This document shows positions 4,139 through 32,378 of a stretch of DNA of 43,565 nucleotides, piece after piece. The notes under the pieces were generated by a model. It saw only the letters and a program-made list of their open reading frames with translations, ran no database searches and was not told the DNA's origin. The stretch comes from Gammaproteobacteria bacterium (GTDB taxonomy: Bacteria > Pseudomonadota > Gammaproteobacteria > Methylococcales > Methylomonadaceae). The stretch is from positions 1 to 43,565 of the forward strand of contig JAHJSQ010000079.1 of NCBI GenBank assembly GCA_018830325.1. The letters are read 5' to 3'. Numbering within the stretch: position 1 is the first letter of the stretch; the number at the start of each line of letters is the position of its first letter. Made by a program: the position numbers and the translations under genes.

Positions 4139-4411
4139 GTGCAAGCGATAATTAATCAGGAGAATAAATCGGTACGATTTAATTATAGGTATTATTCGTA
4201 ATGATTAAAGTCAATAAATTAAATCCTTAACTTTACCTTAACTATCACAATAATTTTAGAAGGGCTATTCTAACGCTGTATCAAGCTCAGTTAAAGCCCG
4301 ATTGCTAACGAAATATGATCTGCGGCTCTATGATCCTGCGATTATCGCTAGAAGGAATGTTGATTCCTTTACAATTTTCTATGGTAGAAGCAGGGGGCTA
4401 AAGCGCTTTTT

Positions 4412-5434
4412 TCAATTAAAAACACAGCTGTTATTGACCTTGATGGCAAAGTCAGGATGCGTTTTCTGCCATCGGTCGCGGATGATAATCAAATTGTCTT
4501 CGTATTCCTGTTTGATATGAATATGAGCGTAAATTCGTTGAGCTTTTTTATAGCGAGGTTTAATTAAAGCGTCCAGATTTTTGGTTGCCAATTGTTTTTT
4601 ATAAGTCTCCGCTCTAATTTCGCTAGAAAAAACACCTAATGAAATATCTCCTTTAACTTCGCCTTTCCGGAACAGCCAATAATCGGTAATTCCTTTTTGT
4701 TTCAAAAGTTCAACATTTGCCAATGATTGTTCATAAGTTTCACCGGCCGGCAAGTACACCATGTAATCGCTAATCTTTTGCTCTTCCCTTCTCACAGATT
4801 TGATCGAAGCGGAATTGATGCCCGTCTGTTTTCGCCAGCTGTAAAATTGCTGCATCGTATCAAACGGCCCGGCCTCATAACACATACTAGAGTCGACCTT
4901 ATTTTTTTTGGGCAGAATTTCTTGTTTTTTAACAAGCAGACCGTTTGCGGCGTCAATTTCTGTTCGCTCAATCACTTGGCTGGCATGACGATTAGTTTCA
5001 TCCGAAATATTGGTTTTTGGGGGTGTTGGAGTTTCCTTAGTCAAGGCTATCGAGGCATCGTTGGAAGCGATAATGGAGGGTGATTCTTTTGGCCGCGTTG
5101 GAGACATTTGATGTGAAACGAAATGCACATCGAGCCATTCGGCTAGAAGCAAATCGGATCTTGCCCCCGAAGAAGGCGCTAAACTAAAATCTGAAACGAA
5201 TATAGCACTGCGAATCGATTGTTCAATCGCCGTACCGGCAGCACACCATAATAACCCGGATCGCGCTTGCTTAAGGCTCGATGAGTCGTTTAGTTCCGAA
5301 ATTAAGGTAATTTGCTGTCCTGTGTCCGCTGTATCGATGAGAACATCACGCTCCAATGAAATAGCGCCGGAATGATATTGCCATAAAAAAAAAGTGATAT
5401 TGAGTATTATTAGCAATAAGGCCAATAGTTTCAT
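4412..5434 (-). CDS. Single-pass membrane protein with SPOR-like C-terminal domain
   Basis: The N terminus has one membrane segment (LLALLLIILNITFFLW), then a low-complexity Ser/Thr/Pro-rich stretch. The C-terminal part contains a SPOR-type pattern (ISLGVFSSEIRAETYKKQL), which in the family binds denuded septal peptidoglycan. The gene starts 3 bases after coaX. The order birA-coaX-SPOR protein is known in other gammaproteobacteria, which supports the assignment. It probably acts at the cell envelope rather than in cofactor metabolism. Residues about 80-150 are not recognised. Confidence 0.7.
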   Translation of the reverse strand: MKLLALLLIILNITFFLWQYHSGAISLERDVLIDTADTGQQITLISELNDSSSLKQARSGLLWCAAGTAIEQSIRSAIFVSDFSLAPSSGARSDLLLAEWLDVHFVSHQMSPTRPKESPSIIASNDASIALTKETPTPPKTNISDETNRHASQVIERTEIDAANGLLVKKQEILPKKNKVDSSMCYEAGPFDTMQQFYSWRKQTGINSASIKSVRREEQKISDYMVYLPAGETYEQSLANVELLKQKGITDYWLFRKGEVKGDISLGVFSSEIRAETYKKQLATKNLDALIKPRYKKAQRIYAHIHIKQEYEDNLIIIRDRWQKTHPDFAIKVNNSCVFN

Positions 5435-12854: not shown

Positions 12855-14030
12855 TTATTCTAGGTTCGCATGTCTCGATCTCATTTCTTCCTCCGGAATG
12901 CCTTTTTCGTGGATGACATGAGAGATGGTCGCTTCCAAAAATGCCAAAGTTGAAAGTTCGAAAACCGTACCCATCGGCATACCGACAACCTTGCCATACT
13001 GTTCCGGGCTACCGACTCTAAACACGGCATCGGCCATGTCGCCGATTGTCGACTCGTTTTTCGCTGAAATCAGCACAATTTGTGCGCCGATATCCCGTGC
13101 CCGCTTAGTAAAGGCAACGAGTTGTTCGGTTTCGCCGGAGCCGGAAATAATAATCAGCAAATCGCCTTGCTTGATGCTGGGGGTAACGATTTCGCCGACC
13201 ACACTGGTATCGTAACCGCTATGCATCAACCGCATGGCAAAAAAGCGGCCAATCAAGCCCGACCGTCCCGCACCTGAAACAAAAATTCGGCGCGCCTGAT
13301 CGAGCATGCTCGTTAGTTTTCTATCATAAGAATCATCGGTTACATATAAGACATCCGAAATCTTATCGACGACAAATTCACGATGCGTGCCCTTGCTATT
13401 GACCAAGCGTTGAATTTTTCTAGCGGCATTGGCTGGAGATGGCGCGCCTGTAATTGCGCCGCCTACGACAATTATGTCAACTCCGGCTTTAACAACATCG
13501 CGTACAGTTTCGGGCTTGATACCGCCGGCAACAGATACTCGAGTATTGAGCCCTAAGCGCAATAAATCTTGTAAATCCGTAAAGGGTGTATGACCGGCCG
13601 CCTGGGCATCGATGCCGGTATGAATGCCGATAATTTGCACACCGGCCGCCACGGCTTCCGCAGCACAACTCGCTTTATCCTCGACATTAATCAAATCGAC
13701 TTGAACTTCGGCATTATATTTTTTTGCCGCGTTAATAACGCCTTTAATAGTTGAAATTCCCGATGTTCCAAGTACCGTGCAGATATCCGCACCGGCTTCA
13801 TAGAATGGACTGGCTTCGTATTCACCGGCATCCATCGTTTTAAGATCGACCAGTAACAACTTATCGGGGAATCTGCGTTTAATTTCCTTGACCAATTCAA
13901 GCCCGTTGAACTTGATACAGGGTGTACCGATTTCAATGATATCGACATAAGGTGCCGCTTGCGAAGCAAGTTCAAGGGTTTTGTCGAAATCCAAAGAATC
14001 TAGTGCCAATTGAATCAATGGTTTTGCCAT
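12855..14030 (-). CDS. hps-phi: Fused 3-hexulose-6-phosphate synthase / 6-phospho-3-hexuloisomerase
   Basis: This bifunctional RuMP-cycle enzyme condenses formaldehyde with ribulose 5-phosphate and isomerises the product to fructose 6-phosphate, in the cytoplasm. Residues 1-about 210 are the synthase, an OMP-decarboxylase-type barrel with the D-x-K-x-x-D motif (VDLKTMDAGE, D62/K64/D67). Residues about 215-391 are the isomerase, a SIS domain (FVSGAGRSGLIGRFFAMRL) ending in EEMRSRHANLE. Fused forms are known in type I methanotrophs alongside separate genes. AGGAG precedes the ATG at good spacing. The gene appears to be transcribed alone; both flanks carry dispersed repeats. Confidence 0.95.
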   Translation of the reverse strand: MAKPLIQLALDSLDFDKTLELASQAAPYVDIIEIGTPCIKFNGLELVKEIKRRFPDKLLLVDLKTMDAGEYEASPFYEAGADICTVLGTSGISTIKGVINAAKKYNAEVQVDLINVEDKASCAAEAVAAGVQIIGIHTGIDAQAAGHTPFTDLQDLLRLGLNTRVSVAGGIKPETVRDVVKAGVDIIVVGGAITGAPSPANAARKIQRLVNSKGTHREFVVDKISDVLYVTDDSYDRKLTSMLDQARRIFVSGAGRSGLIGRFFAMRLMHSGYDTSVVGEIVTPSIKQGDLLIIISGSGETEQLVAFTKRARDIGAQIVLISAKNESTIGDMADAVFRVGSPEQYGKVVGMPMGTVFELSTLAFLEATISHVIHEKGIPEEEMRSRHANLE

Positions 14031-25414: not shown

Positions 25415-25684
25415 TTGTCTACATCTAACGATAAGAGAATTCATCCACGATTAATCCATCGAGCTCCCGTGCTGGTCATTATTCCCGCTTCAGGCAAAAC
25501 CGAGCGATTACAAATGCAGGATTTTTCGGCCGGTGGCGTGTTTATCAATTGCCTCAACGAGACATTACCGCAAATCGGCGACGAAATACAAATCCAAACC
25601 TTGGAAATCGACGATGCTCCGGTTTTAGACGTCAAAGTCGTAAGAGTCATACCTCAAAAGGGTTTTGCGGTTGAGTTTATATGA
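25415..25684 (+). CDS. Small PilZ-domain protein
   Basis: This 89-residue protein is essentially one PilZ domain. RIHPRLIHRAP supplies the RxxxR-type motif and DFSAGGVFI the D/NxSxxG motif, both c-di-GMP contacts in the family. The last strand is FAVEFI. It starts with TTG after GGAAGT. It could be a single-domain c-di-GMP receptor; the target is unknown. It lies downstream of the YihY gene on the same strand and converges on the nucleotidyltransferase gene. Confidence 0.8.
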   Translation: MSTSNDKRIHPRLIHRAPVLVIIPASGKTERLQMQDFSAGGVFINCLNETLPQIGDEIQIQTLEIDDAPVLDVKVVRVIPQKGFAVEFI

Positions 25685-25724: not shown

Positions 25725-26855
25725 TTAGTGATTATCCTTACCGGTCAAGCGCATCCAGCTTTTTCTGAATAAATGAGGAATCAGTAAATGCACCGGCATT
25801 CTGAGCCAATGGGAACGGATGTAAAGTAACCAGCACGCTAAACCATAACCCTTGACTCGACAACTGGAATGACTCGGCGCCAAAGCTCTAAGAAATAAAG
25901 CGTCCATCCACCTTCTTTGCATCGGATTTAAACGCGCCAATCGACCCGCTTCGGTAATCGTCGATTTGGAAATAGGCGTATGCAAAATTTGCGCAGCATA
26001 ATTCAACGCATAAAAAAGCGGCCGCTCTAAGTTAAGCTCGATAGACCGCCTCAATAACGAAGACCAATCATCGTTGGCGACGATATATTGTCTTAACAAT
26101 AAATCCAAATCGGAAATATCGCGAAGCCCCTGACCGAATTCGCCTTCATGAAAAAGATGCGTCGCGCTATGCAAAATCATATCGATCGGAGACAAAGTGA
26201 ACAAACCCGGCATTTGTTCAACCGGAACCGCGCTATCCCAAAGCTGCATCGGCTTTGGCTTGAGTCTCGAAGTAGGAGGTAAAATCGTATGATGCACATC
26301 CAGCGTCGTTTGTCTTTGTATATGTCGCAACGGCGGAATTTCGTGCATCCATTTCCGATAATAACGCTGCTTATAGCGATCGTAACTATCCCCGAACCAA
26401 GCCTTTCGAGCCAATGAACGCTCAGCCAATTCCAAATGTACTTTCTCAACCATAATATCGGTATCGGAAAACAAGCGCCCTTTCGCAGCGTCGTTCTGCA
26501 ACCAGATATAGGCCGCGCCTTTCAAGAGGAGAAATTCAATATCGGCCGTATGAAGCGCATCATAGACTTGACGGACTTCCCAATTCGAAGAACGCGCATT
26601 GGCTTCGGCCAAACGCATAGCATTACAAAAGTGCAAACGCGGCTTTTCGGGAAGCCGATTCAACAAATCGCTTTCCTGTAATAAAACAGCGACTCTACTC
26701 AGTAAATTGGCATGACGCGCCTGGCGAATCAATAATTCCCAAGGATAATTCGACACATCCAGGCGATGAAGCGCTTGCTTACCGTACAGCCGTAAAAATT
26801 GAATTAGAACGATACGGTCAAACATACCATTGAAGGCTTCAGAGCCACGCTGCAC
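25725..26855 (-). CDS. Nucleotidyltransferase-family protein (NTP_transf_5 type)
   Basis: The protein has the nucleotidyltransferase signature LLLKGAAYIW (about residues 109-118) and SDTDIMV (130-136), with acidic residues for metal binding, and a long alpha-helical remainder. Family members occur next to HprK-related kinases in exosortase-A loci and in some lasso-peptide clusters; no substrate is established here. The GTG at 26855 lies 12 bases after the HprK-like stop; an ATG at 26825 is an alternative start. It is the last gene of the minus-strand module. Confidence 0.78.
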   Translation of the reverse strand: MQRGSEAFNGMFDRIVLIQFLRLYGKQALHRLDVSNYPWELLIRQARHANLLSRVAVLLQESDLLNRLPEKPRLHFCNAMRLAEANARSSNWEVRQVYDALHTADIEFLLLKGAAYIWLQNDAAKGRLFSDTDIMVEKVHLELAERSLARKAWFGDSYDRYKQRYYRKWMHEIPPLRHIQRQTTLDVHHTILPPTSRLKPKPMQLWDSAVPVEQMPGLFTLSPIDMILHSATHLFHEGEFGQGLRDISDLDLLLRQYIVANDDWSSLLRRSIELNLERPLFYALNYAAQILHTPISKSTITEAGRLARLNPMQRRWMDALFLRALAPSHSSCRVKGYGLACWLLYIRSHWLRMPVHLLIPHLFRKSWMRLTGKDNH

Positions 26856-26867
26856 TGGAAAAGTTTT

Positions 26868-27773
26868 TCAACGAACAAGGCCATCGATTCCTGCCAATGC
26901 GCTCGCTAAACTCGGATAACTGAAATCGAAGCATTCGACACGATCGATCAAATGCGCCATTGTATCAAAACCTTCGCGCCCAAGAATATTGAAATTGAAA
27001 GCATTTTTAGCCAGCGTCATAAATGCGAGCCCTTTGCTCAACATTTTCAATTCGGATTCACCCTCGCTTCGATAATGCGGAAACACTAAAAAAGCCGGTT
27101 CTGCCGTCTCTGATTGCGACAATACCGAAGCTCTCGGGGGACGCAAGTGCGCAATGTCGCCCTTTGCCGTGTCCGTTACGATCCGCCCGAAATCGGCATC
27201 TGGCGCAAATTCCCGGATGATTTGAATCGATTGATTTTTTAGACTGACCGGACGAGGTACCGGATAAATCAAACCGTCGGCAAGCGATAAAAGCGCCATT
27301 TCATCGGATAGCAATCGCCAGCCTTGGCAAGCTAAGGCCGCGCATAATGTGCTTTTACCGCTACCCGGCGACCCCGGCAAAATCAAGGCCCGACCATTTT
27401 TTTCCACGACCGCGGCATGAAGAATCAAGAAATGATGAGCATTATTGGCAATACACCAATTCAGCCCCCATTCGAACATCGCGCTGGCTTGACTAAGAGG
27501 AAGCGGTAAAAAAGGAATATGATCGTCAAACGAAAAAACGACTTGAGGCCGATAGCAGCGTCTGATTGCCGGACTGGTCAAGGAGACATGAAAGTCGACA
27601 AGCTCCGTTTTCGGTAACGGCTCGAAATCGGCATAGGCAAAATGCAAATGCTCGACCACTTTGTCTATAGAGGATATCAAAGCAATAGTGAAAGCGCCCA
27701 ATCTAAACCGGAAGCCCTCTTTCGAATGCAGTTGTTTTGATAATTTTGGAAGCGATATTTCAGCGACTTTCAA
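26868..27773 (-). CDS. HprK-related kinase (HPr-rel-A type)
   Basis: The P-loop GSPGSGKST (134-142) and the following GWRLLSDEMALL resemble the HPr Ser kinase/phosphorylase core, which phosphorylates protein serine with ATP. The N-terminal 100 residues are unlike HprK itself, matching the so-called HprK-related kinase A group. The TTG start overlaps the stop of the PqqD-like gene (TTGA), implying coupled translation. No HPr or PTS genes are nearby, so a role in sugar-transport control is unlikely. The substrate may be the Tat-signal protein upstream, which is an inference. Confidence 0.8.
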   Translation of the reverse strand: MKVAEISLPKLSKQLHSKEGFRFRLGAFTIALISSIDKVVEHLHFAYADFEPLPKTELVDFHVSLTSPAIRRCYRPQVVFSFDDHIPFLPLPLSQASAMFEWGLNWCIANNAHHFLILHAAVVEKNGRALILPGSPGSGKSTLCAALACQGWRLLSDEMALLSLADGLIYPVPRPVSLKNQSIQIIREFAPDADFGRIVTDTAKGDIAHLRPPRASVLSQSETAEPAFLVFPHYRSEGESELKMLSKGLAFMTLAKNAFNFNILGREGFDTMAHLIDRVECFDFSYPSLASALAGIDGLVR

Positions 27774-28072
27774 GAGTTCTTGCTTCCTATCACTTCCAAT
27801 AGACTCAGTTTTTGGTAATGATCTATCATGCTCTTAACATGATCGTGCAGATTTGGGTCGATTTCGCAATCATATTCGTCGGCAAAATACGACACGATCT
27901 CGAGATAACTCATCGGTTGCATTGACAAAATATTCAAAAAGCGCGCGTTCGATCCTTCAATTAAATGTATATCGCCTGAAAGTCCACAATATGTAACGCA
28001 CTCATCATTCGTAAAATAAAAACTCGTTTGTATGTTTTTTTTATATAAACCGGCATTTTCGCAATCGACCAT
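27770..28072 (-). CDS. PqqD-like peptide-binding protein
   Basis: At 100 residues this resembles the PqqD fold, the recognition element that presents peptides to modifying enzymes. Features include an N-terminal beta segment (TYCGLSGDIHLIEGSNARFL) and the helical C-terminal half (SYLEIVSYFADEYDCEIDP). PqqD-like proteins paired with HprK-like kinases are known from exosortase-A loci. It lies 2 bases after the Tat-signal gene and overlaps the kinase start, so the three are tightly linked. Confidence 0.72.
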   Translation of the reverse strand: MVDCENAGLYKKNIQTSFYFTNDECVTYCGLSGDIHLIEGSNARFLNILSMQPMSYLEIVSYFADEYDCEIDPNLHDHVKSMIDHYQKLSLLEVIGSKNS

Positions 28073-28074
28073 TT

Positions 28075-28707
28075 TTACTCAAAACTACCTACAATTACAT
28101 TAATAAGATAGCCGCGATCCGTTTCATAAAGACTAATGAACTGCGCCTCGTTTAGAACATAAGACAATGAGGTGTTTTTTGCTAATTGTACATTTAACCA
28201 ACCAGCAATTAAATTTCCTCGGTTGTCATATAAACCTGCACCGAGCGCATTGGGAAGCATATCCCTAATCGGGGTAGTATCAAGATTTTCTGTAAATTCA
28301 CCGTGCAGAAAATCAGGAAGGTCAATTAAACATGAACCACCACAATAAGTGGATGATTGGTTATCATTCTTCCTACGTTTACTTTTGCTTTCAGGGCAAG
28401 GCTCACTATAGTTAAACCCAGCCATTTCCCATGCTTTTACAGTTGACCAAGAAGCGTCTAAACTACCAATTTGCCCACCCGGATTACCCCACCCTCCCGG
28501 AGAGTTCCCTCCCCAGCAACTTCCTGCACCTGGATTTGATAAATTACCTGATAAAATGTTGGATAAACATTGCGCGCCAAACGCAGGTCTGTTAGCTAAT
28601 GTCATAATCACAGGAGCCGTGATCCCGGCTTTCGTAAAGGACCGTCTTTTCTTGTCGACCGGAGACGTTGGTTTCACTTCCTTCGTTGATTGATTTTCTG
28701 GATTCAT
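28075..28707 (-). CDS. Tat-signal protein of unknown function, possible substrate of the module
   Basis: The 210-residue product begins with a charged leader and a twin-arginine motif (KKRRSFTKAG, RR at 21-22), a weakly hydrophobic stretch and an AFGA cleavage-like site near 45. The mature part starts Cys-rich and Gly-rich (CLSNILSGNLSNP; then WGGNSPGGWGNPGG) and holds another C-x3-C pair (YCGGSC). The C-terminal half looks globular. I do not recognise a catalytic domain. TGAGG precedes the ATG. DNA here looks more AT-rich than in neighbouring genes. Its position directly before the PqqD-like and kinase genes makes it the best candidate substrate; this is inference. Confidence 0.62.
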   Translation of the reverse strand: MNPENQSTKEVKPTSPVDKKRRSFTKAGITAPVIMTLANRPAFGAQCLSNILSGNLSNPGAGSCWGGNSPGGWGNPGGQIGSLDASWSTVKAWEMAGFNYSEPCPESKSKRRKNDNQSSTYCGGSCLIDLPDFLHGEFTENLDTTPIRDMLPNALGAGLYDNRGNLIAGWLNVQLAKNTSLSYVLNEAQFISLYETDRGYLINVIVGSFE

Positions 28708-28793: not shown

Positions 28794-30686
28794 TTATGAG
28801 GTTTCATTACGAAAAAACGCCTCAAACATTAATAAAGACCAAATCGATGTGCTGTAATCCCTGATTCCGCTTTGATGCTGATCGACTATTTTCTTGATGA
28901 AAGCCTGATCGAAATAGCCGCTGTCGCGCATCGTCTCGCCCAATAACGATTCTCGCACGCGATCTTTTAGCGGACCTCTAAACCAATTTGCCAACGGTAC
29001 CGCAAACCCCATCTTAGAGCGATACAAAATATCGTCCGGCAAATAATTTTCTAAAGACTTTTTGAAAATATATTTGCCTTCGCGGCCTTTCAGCTTCAAA
29101 TCCGGTTGAAGACTTGCAAACCATTCGACCATCTTATGATCGAGCAACGGCACGCGCACTTCGAGCGCATGAGCCATGCTGGCGCGGTCGACTTTTGTCA
29201 AGATATCGCCCGGCAGGTACGTTTTGATGTCGAGATATTGTACTAGCGACTGAGCATCATAGCTAGCGGCATTTTTTGCGTGTTGCCTGAACACCTCAAC
29301 GGCTTGGTAACCTTGCAATTCTTGTTTTAAACGTTGACTAAACAATGCATTACGAATTTCGTTCGAATTAACCGAAACACTGTGAAAATAGCCCTCGAGC
29401 GAATCGCGCGCGATCGATTCGAACGTCGACTTGGCCCTGAAGATTTTTGGCGCCCAGTCGGCTTTCGGATAAGTCCTGCCCAACATGCCGAACAGCGGCT
29501 TACGCAATCCATCAGGCAGAATATGCCGCATGCGGTCTTCGTAAGTATGCCAACGGTAACGCCGGTAACCGGCCAGATTTTCGTCGCCGCCATCGCCCGA
29601 TAGTACGACGGTCACTTGCTTCTTAGCCAATTCGCAGACCCGGTAAGTCGGTAGCGCGGAACTGTCGGCATAGGGTTCGTCATAAAGTCCGGCCAGACGA
29701 TCGATCAAATGAAAATCGTCCGGATCGACCTGTTCGACGCGGTGCGCTGTATGATAGCGTTCGGCAACCAACTGCGCATATTTCGACTCGTTAAAGGCCG
29801 GATCGCCGAACGAGATCGAGCAGGTATTGACCGGCTGTTCGGAAAGACCGGCCATCATCGCAACGACGCCGCTCGAGTCGACGCCGCCCGACAAAAATGC
29901 GCCGAGCGGCACATCGGCAACCATTCTAATGTCGACCGCTTCACGAAAACGTTCGATCAGTTCTTCGGCGATTTCCTGTTCGCTCTTGACTTGCCTCACG
30001 CCGAATTCGACATTCCAATATTGCATGGGGCGGTATTCTTGTTGACCCCGACGGATCGTCAGTTTGAATCCGGGTTCTAGTTTGTGAACGTTTTTGTAGA
30101 TCGTTTTCGGATCGGGGATATAGCCGAAACCGAAATAATCTTCGATCGCCGTAGCATCGAGCTCTCTCGGTAATTGCGGGTGGACTTTCAGCGCTTTCAG
30201 TTCCGAACCGAATATAAACTGTCCGTTCGGCACTTCAGCGTAATATAAAGGCTTTATGCCCAAGCGGTCGCGCGCTAGGAACAAAGTTTCTTTCGCCCTA
30301 TCCCAAATCGCGAATGCAAACATACCGCGCAAGCGGTCGACGCAGACCTCCCCCCACGCCTGCCAACCGACCAGAATCACTTCGGTATCGCAATGCGTCT
30401 TGAAGGTATAACCCAAGGCTTCGAGTTCTTTGCGTAATTCGGGAAAATTGTAGACTTCGCCGTTGTAAGTCAACACGACATTGCCGTCTTGGCTGTGCAT
30501 CGGTTGCTGTCCGCTCGACAGATCGATGATCGACAAGCGCCGATGACCGAATCCCAAACCGGGTTCGGTATGCAAGCCACCTTCATCGGGTCCCCGATGA
30601 AATTGCACCTCATTCATGCGACCGAGCAACTCGCGGTCGATTTCGCGTTTTTCCTTTAGATCAAATATACCGACGATTCCACACAT
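28794..30686 (-). CDS. Asparagine-synthase-like amidotransferase, exosortase-A associated
   Basis: The protein has an N-terminal glutamine amidotransferase domain with catalytic Cys2 (MCGIVGIFD) and a C-terminal ATP-pyrophosphatase domain with the SGGVDSS loop (266-272). Length (630) and sequence fit the amidotransferase-1 group found in exosortase-A/exopolysaccharide loci rather than housekeeping AsnB. A likely role is amidation of a sugar acid in the polymer, which agrees with the sugar dehydrogenase and epimerase genes upstream. CAGGA precedes the ATG. It is separated from the glycosyltransferase gene by a 549-base repeat region. Confidence 0.85.
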   Translation of the reverse strand: MCGIVGIFDLKEKREIDRELLGRMNEVQFHRGPDEGGLHTEPGLGFGHRRLSIIDLSSGQQPMHSQDGNVVLTYNGEVYNFPELRKELEALGYTFKTHCDTEVILVGWQAWGEVCVDRLRGMFAFAIWDRAKETLFLARDRLGIKPLYYAEVPNGQFIFGSELKALKVHPQLPRELDATAIEDYFGFGYIPDPKTIYKNVHKLEPGFKLTIRRGQQEYRPMQYWNVEFGVRQVKSEQEIAEELIERFREAVDIRMVADVPLGAFLSGGVDSSGVVAMMAGLSEQPVNTCSISFGDPAFNESKYAQLVAERYHTAHRVEQVDPDDFHLIDRLAGLYDEPYADSSALPTYRVCELAKKQVTVVLSGDGGDENLAGYRRYRWHTYEDRMRHILPDGLRKPLFGMLGRTYPKADWAPKIFRAKSTFESIARDSLEGYFHSVSVNSNEIRNALFSQRLKQELQGYQAVEVFRQHAKNAASYDAQSLVQYLDIKTYLPGDILTKVDRASMAHALEVRVPLLDHKMVEWFASLQPDLKLKGREGKYIFKKSLENYLPDDILYRSKMGFAVPLANWFRGPLKDRVRESLLGETMRDSGYFDQAFIKKIVDQHQSGIRDYSTSIWSLLMFEAFFRNETS

Positions 30687-31235: not shown

Positions 31236-32378
31236 TTACTGTAATGAATCGTACACGCTCAGATAATTTTTAACCATCGCATCGATAGAAAAAGCTTGCA
31301 AGGCCCGTTCGCGACCTTTGTTGCCGTGCTCGATGCACAGCTTCGGATCGCCGATATAGTCGCTTAGCCTACCCGCTAACTCGGACGGATTTTGTTTTTC
31401 GACCAAAAAACCGGTTTTAGCGTGCTCGACCAGTTCGGGATTACCGCCGACACGCGTTGCAATCACCGGCAAGCCGCTCGCCATCGCTTCGAGTATCGTA
31501 TTCGAAATGCCTTCGGCCTGGGACGGCAAGACGAAAATATCGAAACCGCGCATCAGTTCGGCAACGTCGCTTCGTTCGCCCGGCAGCCAGGCTTGATCGA
31601 GCAAATCGTTTTCATCCAGCAATTGCTTAACTTCCTCACGCAACGGCCCGTCGCCGATCATGACCAATCCGACCGCATTTTTAGATTCGGGATGTCGCTT
31701 CAGCAATTCGACAAAAGCCCGCGCCAACGTCATTTGGTCCTTGACGCCGTGCATGCGGCCTACCGTACCGATGATCAACCTTTTTTCAGCATCGGGCCAC
31801 GGACAATCGCCGACAACGACTTTTGGGCGTGCGGGCTGAAATCGCTCGGTATCGACACCATTACAGATGCGCCGGATTCTCGAGTCGGAAATGCCGACTT
31901 TTTCGCGCAGATAATTGTCGAGATGATCGGAAAGCGGAATGAAGCGATCGATGATCAGTCCCAGCAGGCGCCGCAATAATCGATATTTTTTGTTGCTGCC
32001 GTCCGGGTCGAACACATCCCAGCCGTGCTCGCCATGCACTCTATGTTTGACGCCGGCCAACAACGCCGGAACCTGATATTCGATCGCGGCGAGATTGCGC
32101 GTATGAACGATCGCCGGCTTGATTTGTTTGAGCAAACGATACATTTTCACGAATGACTGCCAGTCCTGCCCTTCCGGTTTGTTCAATTCGTAAATTTCGA
32201 TGTCTTTCCGCTGCAAGCGATTTTTGAAATCAGTGCTGTTTTTCAGGCAAATAATCGCATGCCGGTAGCGATCGGCCGGCATGCGATTAATCAAATTCAC
32301 CAAACCATTCTCCAATCCGCCGACACCGAGGCTGAAGATGATGTGGGCGATTAGGGGGGGCGTTTGATTTAAAGGCAT
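31236..32378 (-). CDS. Glycosyltransferase family 4, exosortase-A/EPS type
   Basis: This is a GT-B retaining glycosyltransferase that adds a sugar during exopolysaccharide assembly at the cytoplasmic face. The N-terminal LGVGGLENGLVNLINRM is the acceptor-side glycine-rich loop; HGEHGWDVFDPDG and the C-terminal FVLPSQAEGISNTILEAMASG (E-x7-E pattern) are donor-site features. It matches the TIGR03088-type sugar transferases of exosortase-A loci. A run of seven C (coding strand) lies in codons 7-9 (32354-32360), where slippage would shift the frame. Upstream lie tandem heptamers and a family D repeat. Confidence 0.87.
   Translation of the reverse strand: MPLNQTPPLIAHIIFSLGVGGLENGLVNLINRMPADRYRHAIICLKNSTDFKNRLQRKDIEIYELNKPEGQDWQSFVKMYRLLKQIKPAIVHTRNLAAIEYQVPALLAGVKHRVHGEHGWDVFDPDGSNKKYRLLRRLLGLIIDRFIPLSDHLDNYLREKVGISDSRIRRICNGVDTERFQPARPKVVVGDCPWPDAEKRLIIGTVGRMHGVKDQMTLARAFVELLKRHPESKNAVGLVMIGDGPLREEVKQLLDENDLLDQAWLPGERSDVAELMRGFDIFVLPSQAEGISNTILEAMASGLPVIATRVGGNPELVEHAKTGFLVEKQNPSELAGRLSDYIGDPKLCIEHGNKGRERALQAFSIDAMVKNYLSVYDSLQ

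Follow-up and report, generated by a model that had tools for sequence, protein, structure and literature searches.

A candidate protein modification and export operon in which a Tat signal may double as a leader peptide

Results

The window analyzed here, the whole 43,565-nucleotide contig JAHJSQ010000079.1 from a gammaproteobacterium of the family Methylomonadaceae (assembly GCA_018830325.1), contains a cassette of four genes on the minus strand that encode a 210-amino-acid secreted protein of the twin-arginine translocation (Tat) type (28075..28707), a 100-amino-acid PqqD-like protein (27770..28072), a 301-amino-acid HprK-related kinase A (HprK-A; 26868..27773), and a 376-amino-acid NTP_transf_5 nucleotidyltransferase-like protein (25725..26855). 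The best explanation for the cassette, to which we assign a probability of about 0.6, is an operon for protein modification and export in which the Tat signal of the first protein doubles as a leader bound by the PqqD-like protein, a predicted RiPP recognition element (RRE). The system would then be a proteobacterial relative of the linear polyphosphorylated peptides (LPPs) of Bacillota (Popov et al. 2026, PMC13381572, here and below from excerpts of that paper). The explanation draws on computed gene linkage, conservation of the signal and of serines, the RRE fold, the kinase motifs, and co-variation of kinase and substrate. Such a small gene set seems to be present in many bacteria of soil and water; it would mark a single exported protein with phosphate, and probably with more, ahead of export, the export signal being the handle for the enzymes.

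The four genes are packed exactly as the original prediction described, with a gap of 2 bases, an overlap of 4 bases, and a gap of 12 bases. Their order recurs in 121 genomes of the same family (family sample), in 369 genomes of the class (class sample), and in named genomes, and because it recurs in three samples, we conclude that the order is not due to chance. A further sample of individual loci combined 80 named loci with 30 family loci, with 10 duplicates between the sets; the named loci were the best 80 of at least 588 stretches, and the sample is therefore biased toward close kin. One locus (L078) lacked an intact kinase open reading frame (ORF) and was dropped, such that 109 of 110 loci were counted. 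The nearest named relatives, among the matches listed, were Methylomonas, Methylobacter, and Methylococcaceae metagenome-assembled genomes (MAGs). The kinase scored 392 bits against the HprK_rel_A model TIGR04352 (cut-off, 200), which places it in the HPr-rel-A system of NCBIfam, and the transferase scored 175 bits against PF14907 (cut-off, 31.2). The Tat-type protein matched no NCBIfam family at E values up to 0.01 and no Pfam family at E values up to 0.1, and no library model matched any of 11 HprK-A-linked Tat-type proteins that were scanned.

The Tat-type protein is tightly linked to the kinase. In the family sample, HprK-A exceeded its cut-off in 41 of 121 genomes, and the Tat protein was matched in 31 genomes, all of them among those 41. 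The two matches lay about 1 kb apart, except at a contig break (G083) and for one extra weak match (G043). For the other 10 HprK-A genomes, a different, second Tat-type protein was present at all eight loci that were read (L002, L010, L017, L019, L023, L026, L027, and L029, with G033 and G061 left out and with only the end of the protein visible at the contig edge of L027). In the class sample, HprK-A exceeded its cut-off in 41 of 369 genomes, and a Tat-type protein was encoded upstream in 40, the remaining locus falling at a contig end (G378). Thirty-six of the 40 were found at an E value of 0.01 or better with A2, an N-terminal profile of 36 rows built from the window and 35 loci chosen for diversity, and four, of a second type described below, were recognized by eye (G254, G135, G433, and G422). 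Five of the 36 matches were weak (E values of 1.6e-4 to 0.009 in G442, G405, G227, G211, and G333), and the match in G177 crosses stop codons, yet a 74-amino-acid Tat-type ORF is present there.

At the same threshold A2 matched 56 of the 369 genomes, and the 20 beyond the kinase-adjoining 36 were weaker (E values of 5e-9 to 0.008); six of these, among those read, had a divergent HprK-like kinase nearby on the contig (G304, G404, G221, G479, G287, and G437). When only the 32 matches with E values of 1e-8 or better were considered, 30 adjoined HprK-A, one lay near a divergent HprK-like kinase (G304), and one lay elsewhere in an HprK-A genome (G415:C20). The last (L196; about 4379-4567, minus strand), lying apart from the kinase locus, is a second Tat-type copy that has an SGNxS motif. 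In the locus sample, the Tat ORF was found by profile in 103 of 109 loci and by eye in L029, four loci were truncated by contig ends, and one, L086, was a real miss. The original prediction had tied the leading gene to the kinase and PqqD-like pair, and the contrary case, a family occurring mostly without those genes, was checked and is not what the genomes hold. We conclude that the protein encoded by the leading gene is very likely the substrate of the other three gene products.

The proteins like that of the window, here called type 1, share a signal of the form SRRxFxK...VxLTLASRPVxG. This is usually followed by C..S...SGNxS; next come a Cys/Gly stretch containing [ST]PG[YWG]W and a domain that varies. 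Tat signals and Tat routing were judged by motifs, and cleavage sites were predicted by the AxA rule alone. In the window, the predicted signal spans residues 1 to 44 (28576..28707, minus strand), with the arginine pair at residues 21 and 22 and predicted cleavage after G44. The A2 alignment contains the SRRxFxK motif, a hydrophobic stretch, and an AxA-like site, with RR in 35 rows and KR in one and with G or A at predicted position -1 in all 36. Shortly past the predicted cleavage site, two serines (Sx3S, usually SGNxS) were invariant in all 36 proteins, and both columns held Ser and never Thr. These are S49 and S53 of the window protein, within the acceptor candidate C47..S49-x3-S53-G-N-x-S57 (28537..28569, minus strand). 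Moreover, among 86 non-redundant type 1 proteins, from which type 2 rows and duplicates had been removed beforehand, S...S was present in 86 and S...SGN.S in 73. The Ser/Thr acceptor claimed originally is thus upheld as a conserved candidate but narrowed to serine, shortly after the Tat signal.

Conservation is distributed in an unusual direction along the type 1 protein. Mean pairwise identity among 22 type 1 proteins (a set that leaves out L150, L151, L153, L164, and L166) was 41% in the signal and 21% in the mature domain. In a control Tat protein of the same class, NosZ, the corresponding values for 24 proteins were 38% for the signal and 61% for the mature part, and the direction is therefore reversed; the control is a single family, a slow-evolving enzyme, with a stricter RR-site rule that kept 24 of 26 loci. 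AlphaFold2 modeled most of a mature helical domain (residues 65 to 210; 28078..28515, minus strand) with high confidence and the serine stretch with low confidence, as if flexible. A Foldseek search with the mature domain gave no PDB match under an E value of 1e-3.

A search of the 369 class genomes with A5, a profile built on the mature domain, yielded 30 matches spread over 29 genomes; of these matches, 25 lay in HprK-A loci and five outside. One outside match was the second copy in G415, with a Tat signal and SGNxS. The other four (G135, G200, G219, and G335) were other secreted proteins with no Tat signal or SGNxS in the parts read, a small sample in which L227 and L233 were read only partly and the N terminus is unsure. 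As these proteins lack the motif in the parts read, the serine motif seems to track the kinase rather than the domain. Separately, an extracellular domain of the form [ST]PGYW...LNA was also seen in other secreted proteins (L225, L227, L233, and L235), and no Pfam or NCBIfam model matched that domain in the Tat-type proteins that carry it. Two other assignments were made by eye. The mature Cys is preceded by Gln and has no lipobox, which rules out a lipoprotein, and the C terminus, YLINVIVGSFE, has no PEP-CTERM anchor and no NCBIfam match and is not of the PEP-CTERM/XrtA substrate type.

Two further types of candidate substrate were recognized. Type 2 proteins carry a signal like that of type 1 but lack the SGN motif. 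In all 14 of them, Ser occupies position +2 or +3 of the predicted mature end, which is the place of the phosphosite Ser3 in LppA of the LPP system. Many also end in a Ser-containing motif, such as GSCWTS or SCLTSF, and the acceptor in type 2 could therefore be at either end. Type 3 (L190 to L195 and L202) pairs divergent HprK-like kinases, which scored 49 to 69 bits against TIGR04352 in the three tested, with short Tat peptides of 57 to 149 amino acids, of which L191 encodes three copies and L192 two. The type 3 peptides mostly have YxxPx[VIL] in the signal and a Ser shortly past the predicted cleavage site. The full gene set is not constant in type 3, as an RRE-like ORF was present in five of seven loci (none found in L192 and L195) and a transferase-like ORF in two of seven (L193, E value of 2e-6; L194, E value of 6e-5). 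The 74-amino-acid ORF of G177 (L164, 787-1011) lies upstream of an HprK-A cassette and ends 12 residues past the predicted cleavage site, and it is possibly a minimal substrate.

The PqqD-like protein is predicted to be an RRE. Its structural model (pLDDT [predicted local distance difference test] score of 88) matched best the lasso peptide RRE TbiB1 in complex with leader (5v1v; E value of 3.4e-4; TM scores of 0.74 and 0.83), which was the sole PDB match under an E value of 1e-3, with 5v1u second and PbtF, 6jx3, and PqqD lower. We conclude that the predicted fold is that of an RRE of the lasso type.

The kinase has the residues expected of an HprK-type enzyme. H119, the P-loop residues G137, G139, K140, and T142, and D157 and E158 were invariant in 22 of 22 sequences and include the HprK His, the P-loop GxxGxGK[ST], and the Asp. 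The kinase profile aligned weakly with the HprK structures 1jb1 and 2qmh over the same motifs (E values of 0.07 to 0.08), and the score against the HPr kinase/phosphatase model TIGR00679 was 15.9 bits (cut-off, 240), as for a related protein that is not a member. In a FastTree phylogeny of 127 kinase rows, one change with a support of 100 separated the 106 rows of type 1 from the 14 of type 2; seven of the 127 rows are unlabeled, several labels were given by eye, and a long-branch warning applies to three type 2 rows. We conclude that kinase and substrate types co-vary. The kinase probably phosphorylates a serine of the Tat protein.

Of 79 named loci, 77 have the transferase next to the other genes; a strict rule finds 58 of them, and a further 19 have overlapping ORF starts. 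K112, G113, R127, D131, and D133, which form KG and DxD motifs, were present in 59 of 59 aligned sequences, the window included. We give an even chance that the transferase acts on the phosphate.

If the Tat signal serves as an RRE-bound leader, its register can be compared with that of the LPP leader, which the RRE grips through Y-16, P-13, and V-11 in the crystal structure (PMC13381572). Residues 29 to 35 of the window protein, ITAPVIM (28603..28623, minus strand), occupy positions -16 to -10 in the YxxPxVL register but with Ile at -16. No gap occurred between position -13 and the predicted cleavage columns in any of the 36 A2 rows, in which position -13 was Pro in 17, position -11 was I, L, or V in 33, and position -10 was L or M in 29. 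Type 2 proteins had P-13 in 14 of 14 cases and Y-16 in one of 14. Type 3 peptides had both Y-16 and P-13 in nine of 10 cases; the spacing in L202 differs, and some peptides have other AxA-like sites.

Several observations weigh against the modification and export operon, and the register provides the main one. Ala at Y-16 or P-13 lowers binding by the LPP RRE, but binding was not noticeably changed by V-11A or L-10A (PMC13381572). In type 1, position -16 was never Tyr or Trp (Ala in 16 rows, Val in 8, Ile in 4, Leu in 4, Gly in 3, and Met in 1), Pro at -13 is confined to just the 17 rows given above, and a loose pattern of hydrophobic..P.hydrophobic was matched by only 41 of 86 proteins. The main weakness is that type 1, although spaced like the LPP leader, does not keep the two residues known to matter: the RRE contact in type 1 would have to differ from that in LPP because Y-16 is missing and P-13 is present in fewer than half of the rows. 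Moreover, the window PqqD-like protein scored only 29.8 bits against TIGR04353 (PqqD_rel_X; cut-off, 35), even though its place and fold agree with the PqqD partner of the HPr-rel-A system. The stretch just past the signal was 43% identical in type 1 and 40.5% in NosZ, and as it is conserved alike, only the serines stand out after the signal; those serines could be structural. L086, a Nitrosospira MAG, encodes HprK-A and the transferase, yet the 5 kb read there encode neither an RRE nor a Tat-type protein. L066 and L071 keep kinase, RRE, and substrate without a transferase. Overall, we slightly favor binding of the Tat signal by the RRE.

The two loci without a transferase also bear on an alternative in which the enzymes act on the Tat protein but leave a different mark. 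For example, the NTP_transf_5 protein could nucleotidylate it directly (AMP or UMP) while the HprK-type protein serves some other function, or the mark could consist solely of polyphosphate, as it does in LPPs. For LPPs, deletion of LppN had no discernible consequence (PMC13381572), which also fits this alternative. Against a different mark, the HprK-like enzymes known from LPPs and from pseudomycoidin work as kinases, and the transferase is nearly constant among the named loci. We consider this alternative unlikely, though deserving of real weight.

The cassette is associated with XrtA-type exosortase systems. Of the 41 HprK-A genomes, 34 had XrtA above its cut-off, compared with 72 of 369 overall (Fisher p of 3e-21, uncorrected for kinship). 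Strict dependence on XrtA is ruled out by the other seven HprK-A genomes, among them that of the window itself, in which no exosortase passed the XrtA cut-off (best score, 187 bits; cut-off, 208), though the window holds XrtA-type polysaccharide genes. The claim of an exosortase-A neighborhood therefore stands as a statistical association and not for the genome from which it was made. The same association would be expected if the enzymes modified some other target within the exopolysaccharide pathway, be it a lipid, a sugar, or a different protein, with the Tat protein a co-regulated surface protein whose serines are structural. That possibility is hard to reconcile with the absence of the serine motif from the parts read of the four other mature-domain proteins, the split of the kinase tree with substrate type, the apparent flexibility of the serine stretch, and the fact that the constant neighbor is the Tat protein and not the asparagine-synthase-like gene, and we judge it quite improbable.

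The asparagine-synthase-like gene next to the cassette is not a constant part of it. The upstream neighbor (28794..30686, minus strand) scored 1081 bits against TIGR03108 and is an XrtA/PEP-CTERM amidotransferase. A TIGR03108-like gene was a frequent neighbor in family loci, but a homologue was found in only four of the 67 named loci with 3.5 kb of upstream sequence, which rules it out as a fixed partner and does not sustain its proposed link to the module as a general feature. The gene bears on one more reading, a lasso-like peptide cluster in which the adjacent protein would be the macrolactam cyclase. Although the RRE is closest to lasso B1 proteins and the accessory enzymes are of the paeninodin type, the neighbor scored only 270 bits against the lasso cyclase model NF033535 (cut-off, 525), no B2 peptidase was present among nine proteins scanned at 25.4-35 kb, and the product has a folded domain rather than a short core. 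We conclude that the lasso-like cluster, to which we gave almost no probability, is ruled out by the cyclase score and because other loci seldom have the gene.

Elsewhere in the window, a TIGR03088 protein (519 bits) is encoded at 31236-32378, and a small PilZ-domain protein (PF07238; 30.6 bits) is encoded on the plus strand at 25415-25684, convergent with the cassette. Positions 12855-14030 hold what we take to be a hexulose-phosphate synthase fusion. Gene content of this kind, together with the named relatives listed above, suggests a gammaproteobacterium of the methanotroph type.

Discussion

We propose that the 210-residue protein uses its Tat signal twice, as an export signal and as a leader for the PqqD-like RRE. 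The RRE would grip the signal at its hydrophobic stretch (positions -16 to -10), and this grip should also hold the precursor back from the Tat translocon. The RRE would at the same time offer the HprK-type kinase the flexible segment that follows the cleavage site. The kinase would then phosphorylate a conserved serine (Ser49 or Ser53), perhaps several times, and the NTP_transf_5 protein may add a further group onto the phosphate, most likely a sugar or a nucleotide. Finally, the folded product would exit via Tat, signal peptidase would cut off the leader, and the modified N terminus would end up outside the inner membrane. We infer these chemical steps, their order, the binding of the signal by the RRE, and any tie to exopolysaccharide from the computed features. 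Attachment to polysaccharide is possible but doubtful, as the XrtA link is statistical, the window's own genome is below the cut-off, and a TIGR03108-like gene is rare in named loci.

More tentatively, the RRE could act as a quality gate that lets proteins through to the Tat translocon only once they carry (poly)phosphorylated serine and a further cap. Such a scheme could span HprK-A types 1 and 2, the 74-amino-acid minimal substrate, and the short or multi-copy Tat peptides near divergent kinases, and it could provide a phosphate-linked attachment point for exopolysaccharide outside.

The kinase family is widespread, with at least 588 confirmed stretches in a scan of 84,980 genomes. In the limited paper collection searched, no substrate of HprK-A kinases was described, and neither the families nor their pairing was named. 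The present work names a substrate family, candidate serines, and the part of the signal for testing. If the proposal is true, RRE-based peptide modification would be joined to Tat export.

Four known systems invite comparison. The NCBIfam library describes the HPr-rel-A system (TIGR04352 and TIGR04353) as a kinase and a "peptide chaperone," and the Tat-type proteins scanned fall outside its models. Tat proofreading chaperones such as TorD and DmsD are small proteins that bind a Tat signal until the cargo is finished. Their fold is unrelated to the RRE, and their finishing step is cofactor insertion, as opposed to the phosphorylation proposed here.

The likeness to paeninodin-type enzymes holds up. 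Like the clusters of the lasso peptides paeninodin and pseudomycoidin, the cassette encodes an HprK-type kinase, an NTP-transferase-like enzyme of a kind that modifies Ser, and an RRE (B1) (review PMC9266682, in excerpts). PsmK phosphorylates pseudomycoidin and PsmN adds a hexose to the phosphate, with a host glycosyltransferase not excluded (PMC9266682). Unlike those clusters, the cassette has neither lasso cyclase nor B2 protease and would act on an exported protein instead of a lasso peptide.

On the excerpts available, the closest known system is that of the LPPs, in which an RRE, an HprK-like kinase, and an NTP transferase act in serine polyphosphorylation and which the authors regard as restricted to Bacillota (PMC13381572). 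LppK adds one to four phosphates to Ser3 of LppA, and the S3T and S3Y variants are not phosphorylated (PMC13381572). Two features of LPP clusters, an SpI-like leader peptidase and an MsbA-like exporter, were absent from the nine proteins scanned at 25.4-35 kb, the SpI-like search covering this locus only. A discrete RRE, an HprK-like kinase, and an NTP transferase are all present in the window. LPP precursors, at 35 to 200 amino acids, likewise have a conserved N terminus and a variable C terminus, the modified Ser lies near the leader cleavage site, the clusters are often at polysaccharide loci, and the leader has the register P-13, V-11, L-10, whose spacing is kept here but with Pro at -13 in only some type 1 proteins. 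Unlike in LPP, the leader here is a Tat signal, the product has a folded domain, and the hosts are mostly Proteobacteria.

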